Positions 2,683 through 21,307 of a stretch of DNA of 21,983 bases are shown here, one piece after another; within the stretch, counting starts at the first letter, position 1; each line of letters begins with the position of its first letter. Position numbers and translations under genes: made by a program. Source of the DNA: a virus; IMG/VR virus record IMGVR_UViG_3300010370_000281, positions 1-21,983 of that record; one strand, written 5' to 3'. The notes under the pieces are model-generated. The model did no database searches and was not told the origin of the DNA. It worked only from the letters and a program-made list of their open reading frames with translations.

Positions 2683-3089
2683 AGAAGTTCTCCCAGGAGC
2701 TGCACGACGAGAACGACCAACCAGCAAAAGATGCGGTCTGGAGGTTCCTTTTTAGAGACTGGAAGTTAGATGTAGAGGAGGGGGATAAGTACGATGTTGA
2801 CCTCGTATGCATGAGAAACGGGGAGGTCGTCGGGTATGTAGAGGTAGAGCGAAGGCAGAACGACTTAAACCGCTTTGAGACGATTCATGTCCCCTACCGA
2901 AAGAAGAAGTTTTTTGTACTGGATCATCCTACGATCCTGTTTGCTGTAAACCGAGACTTTACGGAGGCTTTCTGGGTCGATGGGGATATAATCCTACAGT
3001 CTCCAGTAGAAAATAAAGTCAACAAGTATCTAAAGTCGGAGCGGTTTTTCGTGGTTCCTAAAGTTAAGTGGAGGAGGGTTAAGTTGTGA
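2667..3089 (+). CDS. Putative PD-(D/E)XK-superfamily protein with an E-x-E active site
   Basis: A 140-residue protein. After a helical start (about 1-32) it reads KYDVDLVCMRNGEVVGYVEVERR (41-63, interrupted here only by numbering), giving D43-x-D45, then E59-V-E61. This is the central beta-meander of a restriction-endonuclease fold with Glu where Lys usually stands, as known for BamHI. Downstream strands (FVLDHPTILFAVN) complete an alpha/beta core. The start is a GTG with GAGG six bases upstream, overlapping the glycosyltransferase end by 16 bases. It lies between two glycosyltransferases, suggesting it belongs to the modification cluster, for example by cutting unmodified DNA. The function is an inference from one motif. 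Confidence 0.45.
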   Translation: MAEGLKKFSQELHDENDQPAKDAVWRFLFRDWKLDVEEGDKYDVDLVCMRNGEVVGYVEVERRQNDLNRFETIHVPYRKKKFFVLDHPTILFAVNRDFTEAFWVDGDIILQSPVENKVNKYLKSERFFVVPKVKWRRVKL

Positions 3090-3703
3090 AAGTTTGTGTG
3101 TACACATCTGTTTTTGGAGACTACGACAAGATCGTAGAGCCTGTCTCCCAATCAATCCCAATAGACTTCAAGGTTTGTAATGAGCCGCATGACTTAGGCT
3201 CCCCAAGACTAGAAGCCAAGTATTACAAGATGCACCCACCCGAAGGCTACGACTACACGATCTGGGTGGATGGGTCTGTCAGGATAACTTCTCGGTTCTT
3301 TGCTGAGTACATGGTTTCTCAGGCCAAAGACAAGTGGGCTTTCTTTCCTCACCCGTGGAGACATTGTATATACGCTGAGGCAGAAGAAGCCCATAGCATG
3401 AAGAAGTACCTAGACCAACCAATAATGAAACAGGTGAACTTCTACAGGTCTGAGGGTATGCCAGAGAACTACGGGATGCCTTCTTGCGGGATCATTGCTC
3501 GGTCTACCTGGGGGCAGGAAATCAACGAGGCATGGTGGAACGAGAACCTATCTTGGTCAATAAAGGATCAGGTATCACTTCCATATGTGCTCTGGAAGCA
3601 AAAACAGACTGTATATCTTTGTGATGTCCCGTTGTTCGGTAACGGGTACTTTGAGATTCACGCAAACCATCGGGCCGAGGAGTACAAAAAATGTCAGCAA
3701 TAG
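3086..3703 (+). CDS. DUF616 / TOD1-MUCI70-type glycosyltransferase
   Basis: A 205-residue protein starting MKVCVYTSVFGDYDKIVEP, the hallmark of the DUF616 glycosyltransferase-like domain. It continues with YTIWVDGS (57-64, the DxD-like metal site), FFPHPWRHCIYAEAEEA (86-102) and a late MPSCGIIARS. Members occur in plants, bacteria and large viruses and are thought to transfer sugars to glycans. The GTG start is supported by GGAGGAGG about 8-15 bases upstream and overlaps the previous stop in GTGA. The acceptor is unknown. Second of three consecutive glycosyltransferases. Confidence 0.7.
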   Translation: MKVCVYTSVFGDYDKIVEPVSQSIPIDFKVCNEPHDLGSPRLEAKYYKMHPPEGYDYTIWVDGSVRITSRFFAEYMVSQAKDKWAFFPHPWRHCIYAEAEEAHSMKKYLDQPIMKQVNFYRSEGMPENYGMPSCGIIARSTWGQEINEAWWNENLSWSIKDQVSLPYVLWKQKQTVYLCDVPLFGNGYFEIHANHRAEEYKKCQQ

Positions 3704-10328: not shown

Positions 10329-11771
10329 TCATGCTTGCTCCAATGCAGACAGTCGGGCTTCTAGTGCGTCATTCTTTGCTTCCAGAGTCTCAATGCGCTC
10401 CATTGCTTCTTGCAGGGCTTTGACTGCTTTCATGTAAAGAACCGAGTATTTAACAGACTTAGTTGTAGTGCCAAGAGCATTGCGCTCAGTTTTAACATTG
10501 CCATCCTCGTCAGTAATCTCGATTTCTTCATAATCTGGATGTTCTTCAATGAGTCCAGCGGAAACAGTTTCAAGTTCTTGCGCTACAACACCAATTTGCA
10601 ATGGCCCTGTTGGATCGTTCTTAAACCGAAACTTGCGAACACGAACATTCTTAATGTCATCCCATTGACTTGCGGCATCAACAATGTCTTGTTTTGTCTT
10701 GATGTCAGAGATTTGTCCATAGGAATTATTTGTATTCGTGACATTACCTGAGTCTGCTATAAGTAATTTGTCTGCAACACCTTGAATACGACAACGAAGA
10801 TGGTAGTAACTGTTATTTGTTGTGTTTCTATTTACATTAGAAAAAATGTTGTAATCAGCGAAAGAGCCGCTAGTTGCTTGAGCGCATATTGTGGATCGGT
10901 CTGTAAAGCCTGAGGTTGCTTGAAAAAAGTGGTCTGTTCCAGTTCCTCCAACATTAGCACCCCCTGCGGCATGAATACGGGCACGCTCGGTAACACTGCT
11001 TGCACCATCAGCGGTGGTAGAGAATATCAACCGACCGGGCATATCGTTAGTTCCGGGTGTTCCGTCAACCTCAACACGAATAGAACCAGCAGTTATGTAG
11101 TTTGTTCCATCAGCACCTCTAAAATTTATAACGCCTAATTCATCACCATTTTGCAAAACAGTATTTGTCCCGATTGACGCACCTCTAGACTTAATAAAAT
11201 GAACTGCTGGGACGCCACCTGATGTATTTTGGAAACGACCGATAAAGAATCCACCGTCATTAGAATTACTATCTCCTGCGATGTAAAGTTTTGCGTTGTT
11301 TGAAGCAAATGGGCTTGTTGTTCCAATGAGAGTTCGACCGCTATCATCAATCCGCATCGCCTCTGCCCCACCTTCTGCAAAGGCTATGGTATCTGCCGCA
11401 GGGAAGAAAATGCCTGTGTTTAAGTCGCCCGTTGTAGAGTAAACAGGAGCAGAGACAGTGCCCGCACCCGTGACCACACCGTTGTCTTTCAGTAGCACTC
11501 CGTCAATAGTCACCCCAGCAGCAGAGGTCTTTTCAGAGATCACATCTACATTAAAGGTGTTAACAGTCGTAGAACCGCTCACCACCAAAGAACCACCTAC
11601 GGTCACACCGTCACCGTCAGAACCGACCTGGAAGCGTTTTAGAGCCGCCATGATCTCACGGCCCATGTTATTCATAGAAGAAGGGGGACACCCCTCCGCT
11701 ATGTTTACACCATTGACATCTGTGTTATTTGCGGCACTTGCGTCGTATTGAGAAATCTTTGCTTTTGTCAC
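10329..11771 (-). CDS. Tail fibre with C-terminal S74 intramolecular chaperone
   Basis: A 480-residue protein. The N-terminus (ISQYDASAANNTDVNGVNIA) is a virion-attachment-type segment. The middle (about 60-350) is Gly/Thr/Asn-rich beta structure with ALIGTT-like stretches. From about 353 comes the peptidase S74 / endosialidase chaperone: SDIKTK with S355 and K360 as the predicted Ser-Lys dyad, VAQELETV, YSVLYMKAVKALQEAMERI and a terminal coiled coil (LEAKNDALEARLSALEQA). The chaperone trimerises the fibre and then cleaves itself off at S355, leaving about 354 residues in the mature virion. The GTG start follows the previous TAA by three bases and has AGGAG upstream. Confidence 0.85.
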   Translation of the reverse strand: MTKAKISQYDASAANNTDVNGVNIAEGCPPSSMNNMGREIMAALKRFQVGSDGDGVTVGGSLVVSGSTTVNTFNVDVISEKTSAAGVTIDGVLLKDNGVVTGAGTVSAPVYSTTGDLNTGIFFPAADTIAFAEGGAEAMRIDDSGRTLIGTTSPFASNNAKLYIAGDSNSNDGGFFIGRFQNTSGGVPAVHFIKSRGASIGTNTVLQNGDELGVINFRGADGTNYITAGSIRVEVDGTPGTNDMPGRLIFSTTADGASSVTERARIHAAGGANVGGTGTDHFFQATSGFTDRSTICAQATSGSFADYNIFSNVNRNTTNNSYYHLRCRIQGVADKLLIADSGNVTNTNNSYGQISDIKTKQDIVDAASQWDDIKNVRVRKFRFKNDPTGPLQIGVVAQELETVSAGLIEEHPDYEEIEITDEDGNVKTERNALGTTTKSVKYSVLYMKAVKALQEAMERIETLEAKNDALEARLSALEQA

Positions 11772-16859: not shown

Positions 16860-17654
16860 TTATCCTATCAAAATATAAGCGTAAGTTTTATTTGCCGTGT
16901 TGTTGGCAAAGTGAGAAATAACTGCGCTTCCCGTCGTCTGAGACTCAGCGTATACATTTGAATACGCATAGGGAGCGATGTACTGCACAGTAATAAAAGC
17001 AGTTGGTGTCTCTGGTATTGCTGGAGTAGTTCCAGAAGATGCCACAGCCGCAAAATGCTCAAACGAAACGCCTATGTCTGTTGGCCTCCAAGCAAGTTGG
17101 ATATAGTCACCAGCAGTTAAGTCAAAAAACACCATCGTAGCCGCAATAAGTTGAGAAGCAGCACCAGAAGATTTCCTCGGTTTTATACCAAATTTGCTAT
17201 TTGACTTGTCTATGTTGGAGCCGTTCTTCTTAAACCAAATATCCAAACTCTGAACATCATTTGTTGAGTTCACTACCTGAATAGAAAACTGAATTGCATA
17301 CTTACCTGAATTGCGAAAGTTGATTCTGTTTCCGTTGCTTAGATAAACCCCGTTTGATAAATCCTCTGTATCCAACCCAAGAATGTTCTCGGTGGCGGTC
17401 GTTGTTGCCGCTTGGTCGTTGTAGTCAGAAAATTGAGCATACGGGGCTGCATCGCCTTCAGCCGCATTTGAAAATGGAATCAGGACAATCTTTGTATCTA
17501 CAGAAATACGCTCGTCAACTAGGTTAGTGGTTGTTGCCCAACCCGTATTTAGCGTGATCGTTCCTGTGTTGTTGGTCTTGCCATTCATCACCCCATTGAG
17601 GATCTCGGCAACCGCACGAGGCTCCCCTCCAAACGGAGGCAGTACACGAAACAT
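16860..17654 (-). CDS. Virion protein with jelly-roll-like C-terminal domain
   Basis: A 264-residue protein, MFRVLPPFGGEPRAVAEILN at the start, a short leader common in short-tailed phage fibre or head-decoration proteins. From about 110 it reads like a C1q/TNF-type beta sandwich: NFRNSGKYAIQFSIQVVNST, DIWFKKNGSNID, AATMVFFDLTAGDYIQLAWR, FITVQYIA. Such domains trimerise and often bind host surface or capsid. The ATG at 17654 overlaps the preceding stop in TGATG. A TTG one codon earlier is less likely. The exact virion location is unknown. Confidence 0.6.
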   Translation of the reverse strand: MFRVLPPFGGEPRAVAEILNGVMNGKTNNTGTITLNTGWATTTNLVDERISVDTKIVLIPFSNAAEGDAAPYAQFSDYNDQAATTTATENILGLDTEDLSNGVYLSNGNRINFRNSGKYAIQFSIQVVNSTNDVQSLDIWFKKNGSNIDKSNSKFGIKPRKSSGAASQLIAATMVFFDLTAGDYIQLAWRPTDIGVSFEHFAAVASSGTTPAIPETPTAFITVQYIAPYAYSNVYAESQTTGSAVISHFANNTANKTYAYILIG

Positions 17655-19081
17655 CAACGAGACCCCGCTGGCTGAGACTCTATCTCTACCCCAATGGCTG
17701 TCTGCCAGTTACCTGTCGGGTTGACCCTTAGTCTGTGAAATTTGCCCACCGACCTCAGACCCACTCGATTCTCAGAGTCAGCGGCAACCTCATTGTTAAA
17801 GGTTGGGGTTTGATTCAATAAGAACCTAGAAGCTATTGCTACACTCGCAGAACCGTTGTCTATGATTGGTTTTGCAAGAGTAACCATAGCAGCACTTGGA
17901 ATTTCGTTTAAGTCTGCGGTTTCTATAGATGCTTGTTTGTTAGCACCTGTAAAGGTCACAATCTTTGACCCCTTTACTCCTGAGAACATCATATTTCCAC
18001 CGAGCCAAAGTCTTGAATCTAGCGAAGTTCCAAGAGCGTCTATAGAGGCTGAGAAAGTATCTAATGCTTCCAAAGTAACACTTGGGGTGGTGGAGTCTGC
18101 GATCCTATTGACCGTGGTATCTACATAACTCCAGCGTTTAGTTACCAAGTGATACACCAAAATTCTGTAAGTATTATTTAGGGTTGGATAACCCCACATG
18201 ACTAGATTTTTGGTTGGCTCTACTGCCGCAGACATTTCATCAATGTCAGACTCAATAATCGTATCAAAAAAGAACCTGTTTACTTTTTCTGCACCTATGG
18301 GTTCAATTTGTTGCCCGTTGCAAGAATAAAATCCGTCATCAGCAAGGAAATAAGTAACGCCCTGCCATTGAATTACAGAGTTAGATTCATAGCACCCTAA
18401 GTTTCTAGCAATGTTGTCAAACTGGAAAACTAACGGAGTACCAACATAAGACATTCTGTGGATAGACCGAGCGCAAAGAACAAGCCCAAACTCACCACCT
18501 GTAATCCCTCTGATTTCACCACCGTCAGGAATGTCTTGGAAGTCTGACTGCGTAACCGCAGAACTCGACCAAGTTGTAGGATCGTTAATTCCTGACCATT
18601 GAACCCGATTGGAACCATCTGTGCTATTTGCCGTGACTACAAAATCTCGCACAACAGTCACGAGCTTTGCTTTGGGCGCACCAGAAACAGTTGTAAAGTT
18701 TCCAGTCGTTGTCAGGTCATAACTCTGAAGCGTGTTCGGATGTCCAGCAGCAATTAAAGTATTACCAAACTGCGTGAACCTCCAGCGGTCTGTGACAGTT
18801 GTGTAAGTTGTTGCGGAAATGTTATCTAAAGACAAGTCTGCTGAATCAAACAGAAACAGTTTTGTTGACCCGCCCGCAATAAGACGAGATACGCCACTTG
18901 TGTCTATAGCACCCACCACCGCACTCAAGACTTCAGATGCATCTCCAGAGTAGTCCACCTCTTCCATAAACGGGCCATAACCCACCGCTTTGGGGTACAC
19001 ATTCTTGGCAACCGTCAGCGCTCCTACAAGCCCAGGCTGGTCAGGAAGCCACTCTCCGAAATTTACCCGACTTGTTGCCAT
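17654..19081 (-). CDS. P22 gp10-like tail nozzle / DNA stabilisation protein
   Basis: A 475-residue protein starting MATSRVNFGEWLPDQPGLVG with ALTVAKNVYPKAVGYGPF, the entry motif of the phage packaged-DNA-stabilisation (P22 gp10-like) family. Repeated beta-propeller blades follow: RLIAGGSTKLFLFD, WRFTQFGNTLIAAG, VQWSGINDPTTW, VTYFLADDGFYSCNG, RILVYHLVTKRWSYVD. It would form the six-fold nozzle closing the tail tube below the adaptor, equivalent in position to T7 gp12. Length is in the family range. The start overlaps the repeat-protein gene by 19 bases. Confidence 0.75.
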   Translation of the reverse strand: MATSRVNFGEWLPDQPGLVGALTVAKNVYPKAVGYGPFMEEVDYSGDASEVLSAVVGAIDTSGVSRLIAGGSTKLFLFDSADLSLDNISATTYTTVTDRWRFTQFGNTLIAAGHPNTLQSYDLTTTGNFTTVSGAPKAKLVTVVRDFVVTANSTDGSNRVQWSGINDPTTWSSSAVTQSDFQDIPDGGEIRGITGGEFGLVLCARSIHRMSYVGTPLVFQFDNIARNLGCYESNSVIQWQGVTYFLADDGFYSCNGQQIEPIGAEKVNRFFFDTIIESDIDEMSAAVEPTKNLVMWGYPTLNNTYRILVYHLVTKRWSYVDTTVNRIADSTTPSVTLEALDTFSASIDALGTSLDSRLWLGGNMMFSGVKGSKIVTFTGANKQASIETADLNEIPSAAMVTLAKPIIDNGSASVAIASRFLLNQTPTFNNEVAADSENRVGLRSVGKFHRLRVNPTGNWQTAIGVEIESQPAGSR

Positions 19082-19656
19082 TGATTGTTCCCACTAGAAA
19101 TCGTTGTCCAAGTACCGCTACCAACCGATACAGTAGTCCATGTGTTTGCTTGATCAGCAATGTCCGACCACTCTTCGCCATAAATATAAAGGTTAGCTGC
19201 TACTGTTCCTGTTCCTGCTATCTTCCCAACCACACTACGAGTAATGTTAATCGTTACTGTGACCTCGCCATCAGCACTTATATGGCCTTCAGCGGAGAAC
19301 TCGACACCCGCTAAAGCAAAGACCTCACCTGTGGCTGTAATCGCCCCAAACACAGTCCTAAGTCGGTCAGCAGAAGCAAAAACATCTCCATCTGCGGATA
19401 TAGAACCACTAACCAATTTTTCTCTGATTGCATCGGCAATAACACTTCCAAACGCAGAAATTTCTCCCGCCCCTGGTCGAGTGCGGGTGTAATCTACATT
19501 TACCTCACCATCTGCTTGAACTTGCCCTTCTCCGTAGAGAACACAGGTATTCGGGCTTTCCCATATCTCGCTGTCAAGCGAAAACGGGATTGTGTCTATG
19601 TCCCCAAAGAGGTCTAGTTGCTCTAGGGTAAATGGCCCACAGACATCGGCTGGCAT
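19063..19656 (-). CDS. Virion protein built of six exact 20-residue repeats
   Basis: A 197-residue protein. After a 43-residue head, six repeats begin with Gly at 44, 64, 84, 104, 124 and 144, an exact 20-residue period. Each reads roughly G-x-I-S-A-D-G-E-V then an alternating hydrophobic/polar strand. After residue 170 a second period of 10 residues appears (NTWTTVSVGS, GTWTTISSGN, NQWQQVG) with Trp at every tenth position. The pattern points to a beta-solenoid or stacked beta-hairpin fibre. No enzyme motif is seen. It lies between a tail-associated protein and the nozzle gene, so a tail or fibre component is likely. Confidence 0.65.
   Translation of the reverse strand: MPADVCGPFTLEQLDLFGDIDTIPFSLDSEIWESPNTCVLYGEGQVQADGEVNVDYTRTRPGAGEISAFGSVIADAIREKLVSGSISADGDVFASADRLRTVFGAITATGEVFALAGVEFSAEGHISADGEVTVTINITRSVVGKIAGTGTVAANLYIYGEEWSDIADQANTWTTVSVGSGTWTTISSGNNQWQQVG
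19168..19527 (-). repeat. Six 60-base coding repeats
   Basis: The DNA encoding residues 44-163 of the repeat protein. The period is exact at protein level, with diverged bases: the units share GCxGATGG-like cores but are no longer near-identical, so the repeat is old and kept by selection on the protein. Confidence 0.55.
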
Positions 19657-19657
19657 A

Positions 19658-20044
19658 CTAATCCAAGGCTACAGTCAAACCACCTGTAGAGATCTTGAGG
19701 ATGTCGCCACTCTCAATGGTCTTGGAAGTGGTCAAATCGGTATACATGAGAAGGTTCCCAGTCACCACCGAATCATGGATTCCAAGGGCAACCACAGTTC
19801 CCCAGTTACCTGTTGCTTGCGGAAAAGAAATGTCTGCGTCCGTAGTCGTAAGCCCACCAGAGGCAGCAGAGAACGAAGCAGCCTGACGAGCATAAGAGCC
19901 GCCAGAAACCTCAGTTCCACCACCTGAGTCGGTTGGAGCAACTGTATAAAGCCCGATGTAGGCAGTTGTTGGGGAAGTGAAGTTTACATTCCGCAGGACA
20001 TGATCGAGCAGTTTTTCTTCCAAGTAGTTGCTAAATTCAGCCAT
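19658..20044 (-). CDS. Gp80-like phage structural protein
   Basis: A 128-residue protein, FSNYLEEKLLDHVLRNVNFT then TTAYIGLYTVAPTDSGGGTE, GGSYARQAASFSAASGG, ISFPQATGNWGTVVALGIHD and LLMYTDLTTSKTIESGDIL. This is the well-known small beta protein family found in many tailed phages next to head-tail or fibre genes (often annotated as gp80-like or tail fibre-like). It is complete. The exact role is unproven; minor tail or head decoration are options. It starts two bases after the adaptor stop. Confidence 0.65.
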   Translation of the reverse strand: MAEFSNYLEEKLLDHVLRNVNFTSPTTAYIGLYTVAPTDSGGGTEVSGGSYARQAASFSAASGGLTTTDADISFPQATGNWGTVVALGIHDSVVTGNLLMYTDLTTSKTIESGDILKISTGGLTVALD

Positions 20045-20046
20045 GA

Positions 20047-20667
20047 TTACCTCGATGTAACAGACATTTGAAGGGGAACACCAGAATACTCAGAAGACTC
20101 GTCAGAAACATTAAGAGACTCAAGAGCAGCGTTATAAAAATTCGACCAGATAGCAATGCGGTTATCGTTCATCAAGTAAGGCTCTGCCTCCACGAGAGCC
20201 CCATAAAGGAGCGCATCTGGGGCATTAGCCAAGAAGACATTGCTCGTGTTGCTATCACTCAAAACATCGGGTTTTGCGTAGTACAGCATCACCAAGGTGT
20301 AAGCCGTGTCGGGGATAGGAGCAAACTCAAACTCAGCGGCCCGAAGGGTATAGAAGTTAGGTCTGCCAGAATCAGCAGCACGAGCATCCCGACTAAAGGC
20401 ACTAGGACTTAGGTAACTCAGGGTGAAACGAGGACGGGCATCTATGTAAATGTCCCGCAATTCTAGGAAATCAGACGGAAGCCCTACTGTGCTATCTCCG
20501 CCAGTCGTGGTGGCAGTAGCGGTCTTCAACATCTGCCGAACCCTCAGATTTCTTTGGAGTCGGTACTCAGCAAGAGTAATAAAATCAGGAATTTGGGCAG
20601 TCAGATCAGAACGCCCAAGGTAATTGGCGATGCTAGTCTTTAGTCCCGAGTAATTCGTTATCGCCAT
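20047..20667 (-). CDS. Head-tail adaptor (T7 gp11 / SU10 adaptor-like)
   Basis: A 206-residue protein: NYSGLKTSIANYLGRSDLTA, IPDFITLAEYRLQRNLRVRQ, GLPSDFLELRDIYID, YTLVMLYYAKPD, DALLYGALVEAEPYLMNDNR. The pattern of early helices with E-x-R-L-x-R-x-L-R, a beta insert after LPSDFLELR, and the late ALLYGALxEAxPYL helix is that of the dodecameric adaptors of short-tailed phages. These sit between portal and nozzle. The start lies 35 bases inside the glycosyltransferase gene. Confidence 0.78.
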   Translation of the reverse strand: MAITNYSGLKTSIANYLGRSDLTAQIPDFITLAEYRLQRNLRVRQMLKTATATTTGGDSTVGLPSDFLELRDIYIDARPRFTLSYLSPSAFSRDARAADSGRPNFYTLRAAEFEFAPIPDTAYTLVMLYYAKPDVLSDSNTSNVFLANAPDALLYGALVEAEPYLMNDNRIAIWSNFYNAALESLNVSDESSEYSGVPLQMSVTSR

Positions 20668-21307
20668 CTATAATGTCCTTCCAGCCGTAGGTGTATGAGC
20701 CAACATGACCGATTTCATTACTAAGGCCGTGATCCACCCAAGTCTCAAAACCAGCGTCGTGCGCTGCAACACAGAAATGAACATCCTCGCCTAACACCTT
20801 GTTTCCAGGTAATTGGTAAAACCAGAACCAAGGTTGCGGGGTTTTTTCAAATACTTTCCTCTTAACCAGCATGACTCCACAGCCAATGCTCGTCACTTTC
20901 TCAATCCCAGTCTTTCCTTTTGAAGAAACCTGAGTCCAAACATTTGTCTTTTCTTCCTCGTTGATCACTAAGTTTTTAGCAGTCGCTTTCACAGGAATAG
21001 TCCGAGTTGTTGCATTTACACCACAAATATCTTTGTTGTGGCGCATCAATCTTTCAATAGTGTTCTTCGGGAATCGCATATCTGCGTCAACCCAGAGAAT
21101 CCAGTCACAGTTCTCTTCTAAGGCGGCAATGGCTAACTTTTCCCTCTGGTCGAATATCAGAGTGCCGTTGACCGTATAAATCGCCTGTTCGCCCTTCCTA
21201 AACTTAGAGTCATAACTGGTCATTAAAGCCAGATCAAAGGCGGTTCCAATCTCCATCTCGCCCCTGCTGGGAATACAAATTCCTACTTTATCGCCCTTTT
21301 TCTTCAT
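20633..21307 (-). CDS. GT-A glycosyltransferase within the virion operon
   Basis: A 224-residue protein: VGICIPSRGEMEIGTAFDLA (8-27), WILWVDADMRFP with D74-x-D76, and ICGVNATTRTIPVKA. VTSIGCGVMLVKRKVF (138-153) is the acceptor-side strand. GEDVHFC (173-179) follows, with the likely catalytic acid, and a late EIGHVG with H201. All parts of a metal-dependent GT-A enzyme are present. It is translated with the 106-residue protein (ATGA overlap) and overlaps the adaptor gene. Expression with the capsid suggests glycosylation of a virion or host-surface acceptor. It is unlike the three early enzymes in sequence. Confidence 0.78.
   Translation of the reverse strand: MKKKGDKVGICIPSRGEMEIGTAFDLALMTSYDSKFRKGEQAIYTVNGTLIFDQREKLAIAALEENCDWILWVDADMRFPKNTIERLMRHNKDICGVNATTRTIPVKATAKNLVINEEEKTNVWTQVSSKGKTGIEKVTSIGCGVMLVKRKVFEKTPQPWFWFYQLPGNKVLGEDVHFCVAAHDAGFETWVDHGLSNEIGHVGSYTYGWKDIIDGDNELLGTKD

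Follow-up and report, generated by a model that had tools for sequence, protein, structure and literature searches.

A periodic repeat protein follows a GP4-type bead gene

The window, by which we mean the whole 21,983-base stretch of viral DNA analysed here (IMG/VR record IMGVR_UViG_3300010370_000281), carries a cluster of virion genes on its minus strand (Table 1). Read along that strand, the order is the end of the major capsid gene, two genes, an SU10-type adaptor, a bead protein, the repeat protein and a presumed nozzle protein, past which lie one gene without a clear family and then a gene matching the ejection-protein family phrog_4287. The capsid gene end resembles the capsid of MW202462, and no close isolate of the window virus was found in the phage collection. 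The bead matches PF23140 (E 2e-46) and the GP4 chain 8jou_a in the PDB, the latter both by sequence (E 2.7e-10) and by profile (E 3.9e-41). The end of the repeat gene and the start of the presumed nozzle gene share 19 bases. Elsewhere in the window there are three glycosyltransferase-like genes, one of which sits between the capsid and adaptor genes, and an ORF resembling, by eye, a GIY-YIG homing endonuclease.

Table 1 Features of the window discussed in the text
Feature	Coordinates	Strand	Remarks
Rope-like repeat protein	19063..19656	(-)	197 aa; stop codon within coordinates
N-terminal anchor, residues 1-43	19528..19656	(-)	MPADVCGPFTLEQLD...SLDSEIW...; best-conserved portion
Six 20-residue units, residues 44-163	19168..19527	(-)	60 bases each
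Individual units	19468-19527, 19408-19467, 19348-19407, 19288-19347, 19228-19287, 19168-19227	(-)	
C-terminal Trp tail	19066..19170	(-)	W163, W173, W183, W193; one Trp per 10 residues
Bead	19658..20044	(-)	128 aa; homologous to gp80 of GP4 fibre I; the rope gene follows directly
Presumed tail nozzle/stabilisation protein	17654..19081	(-)	phrog_3287 virion structural protein, E 1.8e-68
Head-tail adaptor	20047..20667	(-)	PF24175 SU10_adaptor, E 5.1e-38
Tail fibre-like protein	10329-11771		C-terminal S74 chaperone domain (PF13884)
Glycosyltransferase-like genes (three)	1957-2682, 3086-3703, 20633-21307		PF10111, PF04765, Anp1
ORF of 274 aa	9410-10234	(-)	No Pfam match; GIY-YIG-like by eye; flanked by lysis and tail-fibre genes

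The original prediction, made from the DNA letters, described six exact 20-residue repeats with glycines at positions 44, 64, 84, 104, 124 and 144, followed by a 10-residue Trp period, in a virion protein. The translation bears out the glycines and the Trp period at the C-terminus. The repeats are exact in register, with no indel in six units, but not in sequence, as all units differ: no two are identical, and they share the consensus G-x-[I/V]-x-[A/G]-x-[G]-x-V-x-[A/V]. Between residues 38 and 160, 37 of the 103 residue pairs at spacing 20 are identical, whereas the best-period identity of shuffled versions was at most 22% and none of 5000 shuffles equalled the observed period-20 signal. DNA-level tandem repeats are absent from the gene, where the scan gave only a 15-base array, suggesting that the units are old. 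In a 15-sequence alignment, 23 of the 27 invariant columns fall in residues 1-41. At E 0.1 neither PHROGs nor Pfam gave a family match for the protein, and a PDB sequence search gave no match. Its placement in the virion, which had been a guess, is backed by the gene order and by annotated relatives.

Repeat number varies in whole units among relatives

Relatives were collected in two overlapping sets, one from a scan of viral contigs (26 loci) and the other from an alignment search (best 80 of 147). In the first set, 20 of the 22 distinct sequences, the window included, could be measured between anchor and tail, and this region was 127 aa long in 6 rows and 207 aa long in the other 14, corresponding to 6 or 10 units. 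The same two lengths dominated the 81 measurable ropes of the wider set (207 residues in 48 and 127 in 20), the rest lying near 6, 8, 9, 10 or 12 units. Across window-type ropes, the spacing between units was exactly 20 in 870 of 877 cases. The Trp steps were exactly 10 in all measured rows of both sets, with steps of 8 to 12 accepted by the measurement in the wider set.

Among 115 distinct complete ropes we counted 10 units in 68, 6 in 27, 8 in 8, 9 in 8, 12 in 2, and 5 and 7 in one each. Each figure, like those used for the bead tree and the clusters below, is the larger of two counts, one from an in-register counter, whose result is too low when a rope has a small indel or its first unit is weak, and one from a flexible counter, which loses weak end units. 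Ropes with fewer than five units by the in-register counter and ORFs open at the 3' end were dropped from these 115 ropes and from the 36 clusters described below; the five-unit filter takes out Methylophilales phage Venkman, phiM5 and the ropes of the GP4 group, to which the profile is blind. The tail held six Trp residues in 90 of the complete ropes and four in 21, together 111 of the 115. Irregular register in homologues, named in the original prediction as grounds for abandoning it, did not occur. With a strict homologue register and a repeat number that varies in whole 20-residue units, a length-setting role, which had been offered as one of two options, is well supported.

Two proteins in the rope position, BcepIL02 gp56 and BcepMigl gp57, are annotated as virion-associated. 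No relative of the window rope was found in 203 candidate stretches of bacterial genomes, and no ORF matched both the bead and rope profiles, as a natural fusion would. A literature search covering the rope and its repeat as well as bead chains, with subscription papers outside its coverage, returned no paper on 20-residue rope repeats.

Period-20 proteins accompany the bead across phages

Among 106 rope loci, counted without deduplication, the bead gene is the immediate upstream neighbour of the rope in 100 and lies further upstream in 5, while one short locus lacks it. In a complementary sample, 80 loci were found by the bead alone, 76 of which were long enough for a downstream test. A period-20 ORF lay downstream of the bead in 55 of these 76 loci, in 42 of them immediately, and none of the 210 upstream ORFs of the bead-only loci showed the period. 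The other 21 testable loci had no period-20 ORF within the ≤2.5 kb downstream examined. The windowed test applied to the annotated phages below takes the best window of each ORF and so gives optimistic scores. Its background amounted to 8 of 697 ORFs: six are ropes neighbouring a bead that the profile had missed, and two are other ORFs in bead loci (L081 and L132). In both of these loci the ORF that passes is about 420 aa long and follows the bead. Some loci (L078, L081, L082, L086 and L089) have an extra gene, of the MAFVLKDRVKET... type, between bead and rope.

Of the 471 phage records in which the bead was found, 399 are from Mycobacterium phages. Beside it, period-20 proteins of unrelated sequence were encountered in Laurie (gp33), Lolly9 (gp22), phiGD23-1 (gp20), Bazzle (gp24), the Psychrobacillus phage PVJ1 (PVJ1_58) and the Sporosarcina phage Lietuvens (Lietuvens27), the last two being Gram-positive myophages. 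The neighbour is directly upstream of the bead in the mycobacteriophages Laurie, Lolly9 and phiGD23-1 and downstream in Bazzle; GordDuk1 and SororFago gave a weak period-20 signal beside the bead. Laurie gp33 (L037:2766-3974), Lolly9 gp22 (L220:1759-2958) and phiGD23-1 gp20 (L222:1819-2973) go under the name of 'minor tail proteins' and carry 20-residue repeats.

Two further loci show the bead in other settings. Caulobacter phage J4, a phiCbK-like jumbo phage, encodes an unannotated bead homologue close to the major capsid gene (L225:3001-3390), which we presume may be linked to the head filament; none of the five genes tested beside it showed period 20. In Octadecabacter Antarctic DB virus 2, gp11 (L033:6208-7734), three genes after the bead gene, has 22-residue repeats, judged by eye, and a six-step Trp tail, and is possibly a rope with another period. 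The gene directly after the bead of this virus, gp9 (L033:4416-4778), resembles a second bead-type protein by eye, and the bead profile gave no match to it.

The window genes parallel GP4 fibre I in arrangement and not in rope sequence

PDB entry 8JOU, from Ralstonia phage GP4 and titled fibre I and fibre-tail adaptor, contains ten gp80 chains (8jou_a). The GP4 paper reportedly describes in its abstract an elongated rope protein that joins five gp80 dimers. One locus in our collection (L209, 61129 bases) encodes a bead 100% identical to 8jou_a, and the gene directly downstream (L209:2206-3180) encodes 325 aa, divisible by eye into about 11 units, each some 20 residues long. Ten beads against about 11 units is in rough agreement with one unit per bead. 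We searched the PDB with rope sequences (BcepMigl, a Lessievirus/Ittyvirus profile and GP4) and none was present. The GP4 repeat protein therefore cannot be tied to the 8JOU rope, and the rope chain in that entry is either unassigned or absent. In a passage of PMC13243795, the GP4 protein 8JOU_g is stated to be a dimer.

GP4 fibre I and the window both have the PF23140 bead family and, immediately following it, a repeat gene with a period of about 20 residues, and the related ropes of Lessievirus, POI1126 and PBC5 also show period 20. In contrast, the rope sequences show no homology: alignment of window-type with Lessievirus/Ittyvirus ropes by hhalign gave a probability of 0.1% and E 0.44. The unit numbers also differ (about 11 in GP4 and 6 in the window), the GP4 rope lacks the Trp tail, and no counterpart of the 15-fold GP4 fibre-tail adaptor (8jou_D family) was recognised among the ORFs of the window, a 21983-base fragment. 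The same holds for phrog_19041, a family of rope-position virion proteins of Lessievirus and GP4, which agrees with the window protein in gene position and period; no profile match to it was obtained for the window protein, nor was one found among the matches of 15 members. By sequence the window protein does not appear to belong to the GP4 rope family, and this lack of homology counts against the rope model proposed below, while the best reading is that it works like the GP4 rope.

Bead proteins and threaded chains are found in other phages as well. The Shigella phage Sf14 whisker protein gp31 (PDB 9C39) and the Bas63 protein (9MT4) have a fold in common with the window-type bead (Foldseek probability 1.0, Z 10.2), and Sf14 gp31 matches the bead profile weakly (12.6 bits). 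According to PMC11821841, the gp31 whisker dimer is bound by gp30, a single chain of which threads both whiskers, each being completed by a gp31 dimer. This sets a precedent for a threaded rope. Unlike the proposed window rope, gp30 is 166 aa long without a 20-residue period, and each whisker has one bead dimer and no chain of beads. The neck fibre of Anabaena phage A-1(L) is similar to the proposed fibre in being flexible, with a defined number of beads, and located near the neck, as described in PMC10966104. Its gp81 trimers are, in that account, joined head to tail with no rope, and we therefore rejected it as a direct model.

A rope model and its rivals

We propose that the repeat protein probably serves as a rope on which gp80-type beads are strung to form a fibre, with one repeat per bead site. 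In its favour are the close pairing of bead and repeat genes, lengths that change in whole units, a repeat number that changes freely of the bead, the GP4 repeat gene after gp80, the shared period in unrelated bead neighbours and the Sf14 precedent. Among the points against it are the 21 bead loci and phage J4 without a period-20 neighbour, the weak signals of GordDuk1 and SororFago, the 22-residue repeats of DB virus 2 and the lack of a recognisable GP4-type fibre-tail adaptor in the window, itself a fragment. The N-terminal anchor would dock on the virion. In each 20-residue unit, one extended strand (G-x-I-x-A-x-G-x-V-x-A) may be captured by one gp80-type bead subunit, while the remaining half would reach across to the next bead, and the rope alone would have little stable fold, gaining order on the beads. 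If one unit is captured per bead, the unit number would set the bead number and with it the fibre length, giving about 6 bead sites in the window rope and, in many relatives, 8 to 12. The Trp tail, which usually has four or six ten-residue steps, might hold a distal or capping partner. It is also possible, though we lean slightly against it, that unrelated ropes owe their 20-residue period to docking on gp80-type beads, so that one repeat equals one bead in a widespread modular fibre shared by proteobacterial podophages, actinobacterial siphophages and Gram-positive myophages, the GP4 rope being the gene after gp80. If true, the fibre length of a class of virions could be read by counting repeats, much as tail length is from tape-measure proteins, and could be tested by adding or removing whole units; the gene beside the bead would also gain a named function in most lineages examined.

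AlphaFold2 modelling of the window protein alone gave a pLDDT of 43 and a pTM of 0.31, with no residue above 70, which comes close to the disordered chain that the original prediction had named as speaking against its regular beta structure. A read-through model, in which the bead and rope of a relative (L056) were artificially joined, reached a pLDDT of 53.7 and a pTM of 0.39. Its block-mean pLDDT was about 45-77 in the repeats and 33-78 in the bead, values that make an uncontrolled comparison with the rope-alone model, since both protein and alignment differ. The bead part resembles 8jou_a (Z 11.3), Bas63 9mt4_K (Z 10.2) and Sf14 9c39_K (Z 10.2). Residues 166-297 were drawn as a beta-solenoid similar to 4ygu (Z 12.0, 2.5 A over 115) and 1rwr (Z 9.1), so that this weak model speaks against the rope model.

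The solenoid speaks for the main rival, in which the repeats self-fold into a parallel beta-helix, right-handed and with 20 residues per coil, similar to filamentous haemagglutinin or DUF2807 adhesins, forming a short rigid rod with its load at the Trp tail. One relative (L001) also passes the PF05594 profile (26 bits, cut-off 21.5), and a profile search gave weak hits to 4opw and 3jx8 (E 0.02-0.04). The window protein itself matches neither the filamentous haemagglutinin nor the DUF2807 Pfam profiles and is not confidently folded, the solenoid was drawn at low confidence, and AlphaFold2 is known to produce spurious solenoids when given repeats. At about 4.8 A per coil, a stack of six would be only about 3 nm long. 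Furthermore, unrelated ropes next to the bead that are not rich in glycine, such as Laurie gp33, have the 20-residue period too, which a self-folding helix would not require. On balance, we consider a beta-helix unlikely, though a rival to be taken seriously.

The reading in which the gene product has a role as assembly factor or receptor-binding adhesin, travelling with the bead gene and threading nothing, seems improbable to us. In its favour, relatives carry the label serine-rich adhesin in their annotation. The whole-unit length changes, fixed register and conserved anchors suit a ruler or scaffold better, and the proteins in the same position in BcepIL02 and BcepMigl have virion annotations. 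Very improbable is the shaft of a trimeric tail fibre or spike, with the repeats as an intertwined beta shaft. This suggestion accompanied the first description of the repeats, and the regular repeats and the location among tail genes agree with it. No trimeric fibre family was matched, the S74-chaperone fibre of the window phage is a separate gene (Table 1), and the neighbouring bead corresponds to the GP4 fibre-I protein, present in ten copies in 8JOU and said to form rope-linked dimers.

Repeat number is labile relative to the bead

We finally consider how the unit number of the proposed rope has changed. When the complete ropes were clustered at 60% identity (n=36), 29 clusters were all even and 7 all odd in unit number. 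Dimeric beads would predict even numbers, and the odd clusters thus count against the rope model; a strict dimer parity, with two units per bead dimer and only even numbers, fails. The idea that the rope length matches the capsid edge, which we considered by reasoning only, was dropped because BcepMigl and JC1 have genomes of similar size (63 and 61 kb) and ropes of different length.

On a 94-tip tree of bead proteins, parsimony required at least 23 changes of unit number, as compared with a mean of 38.8 and a minimum of 33 when the labels were shuffled, indicating that the repeat number is partly inherited but labile. Beads about 90% identical pair with 6- and 10-unit ropes, and beads 97% identical pair with ropes of 8 and 12 units, which differ in length by 80 aa. 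With such differences among near-identical beads, the repeat number appears to evolve freely of the bead.
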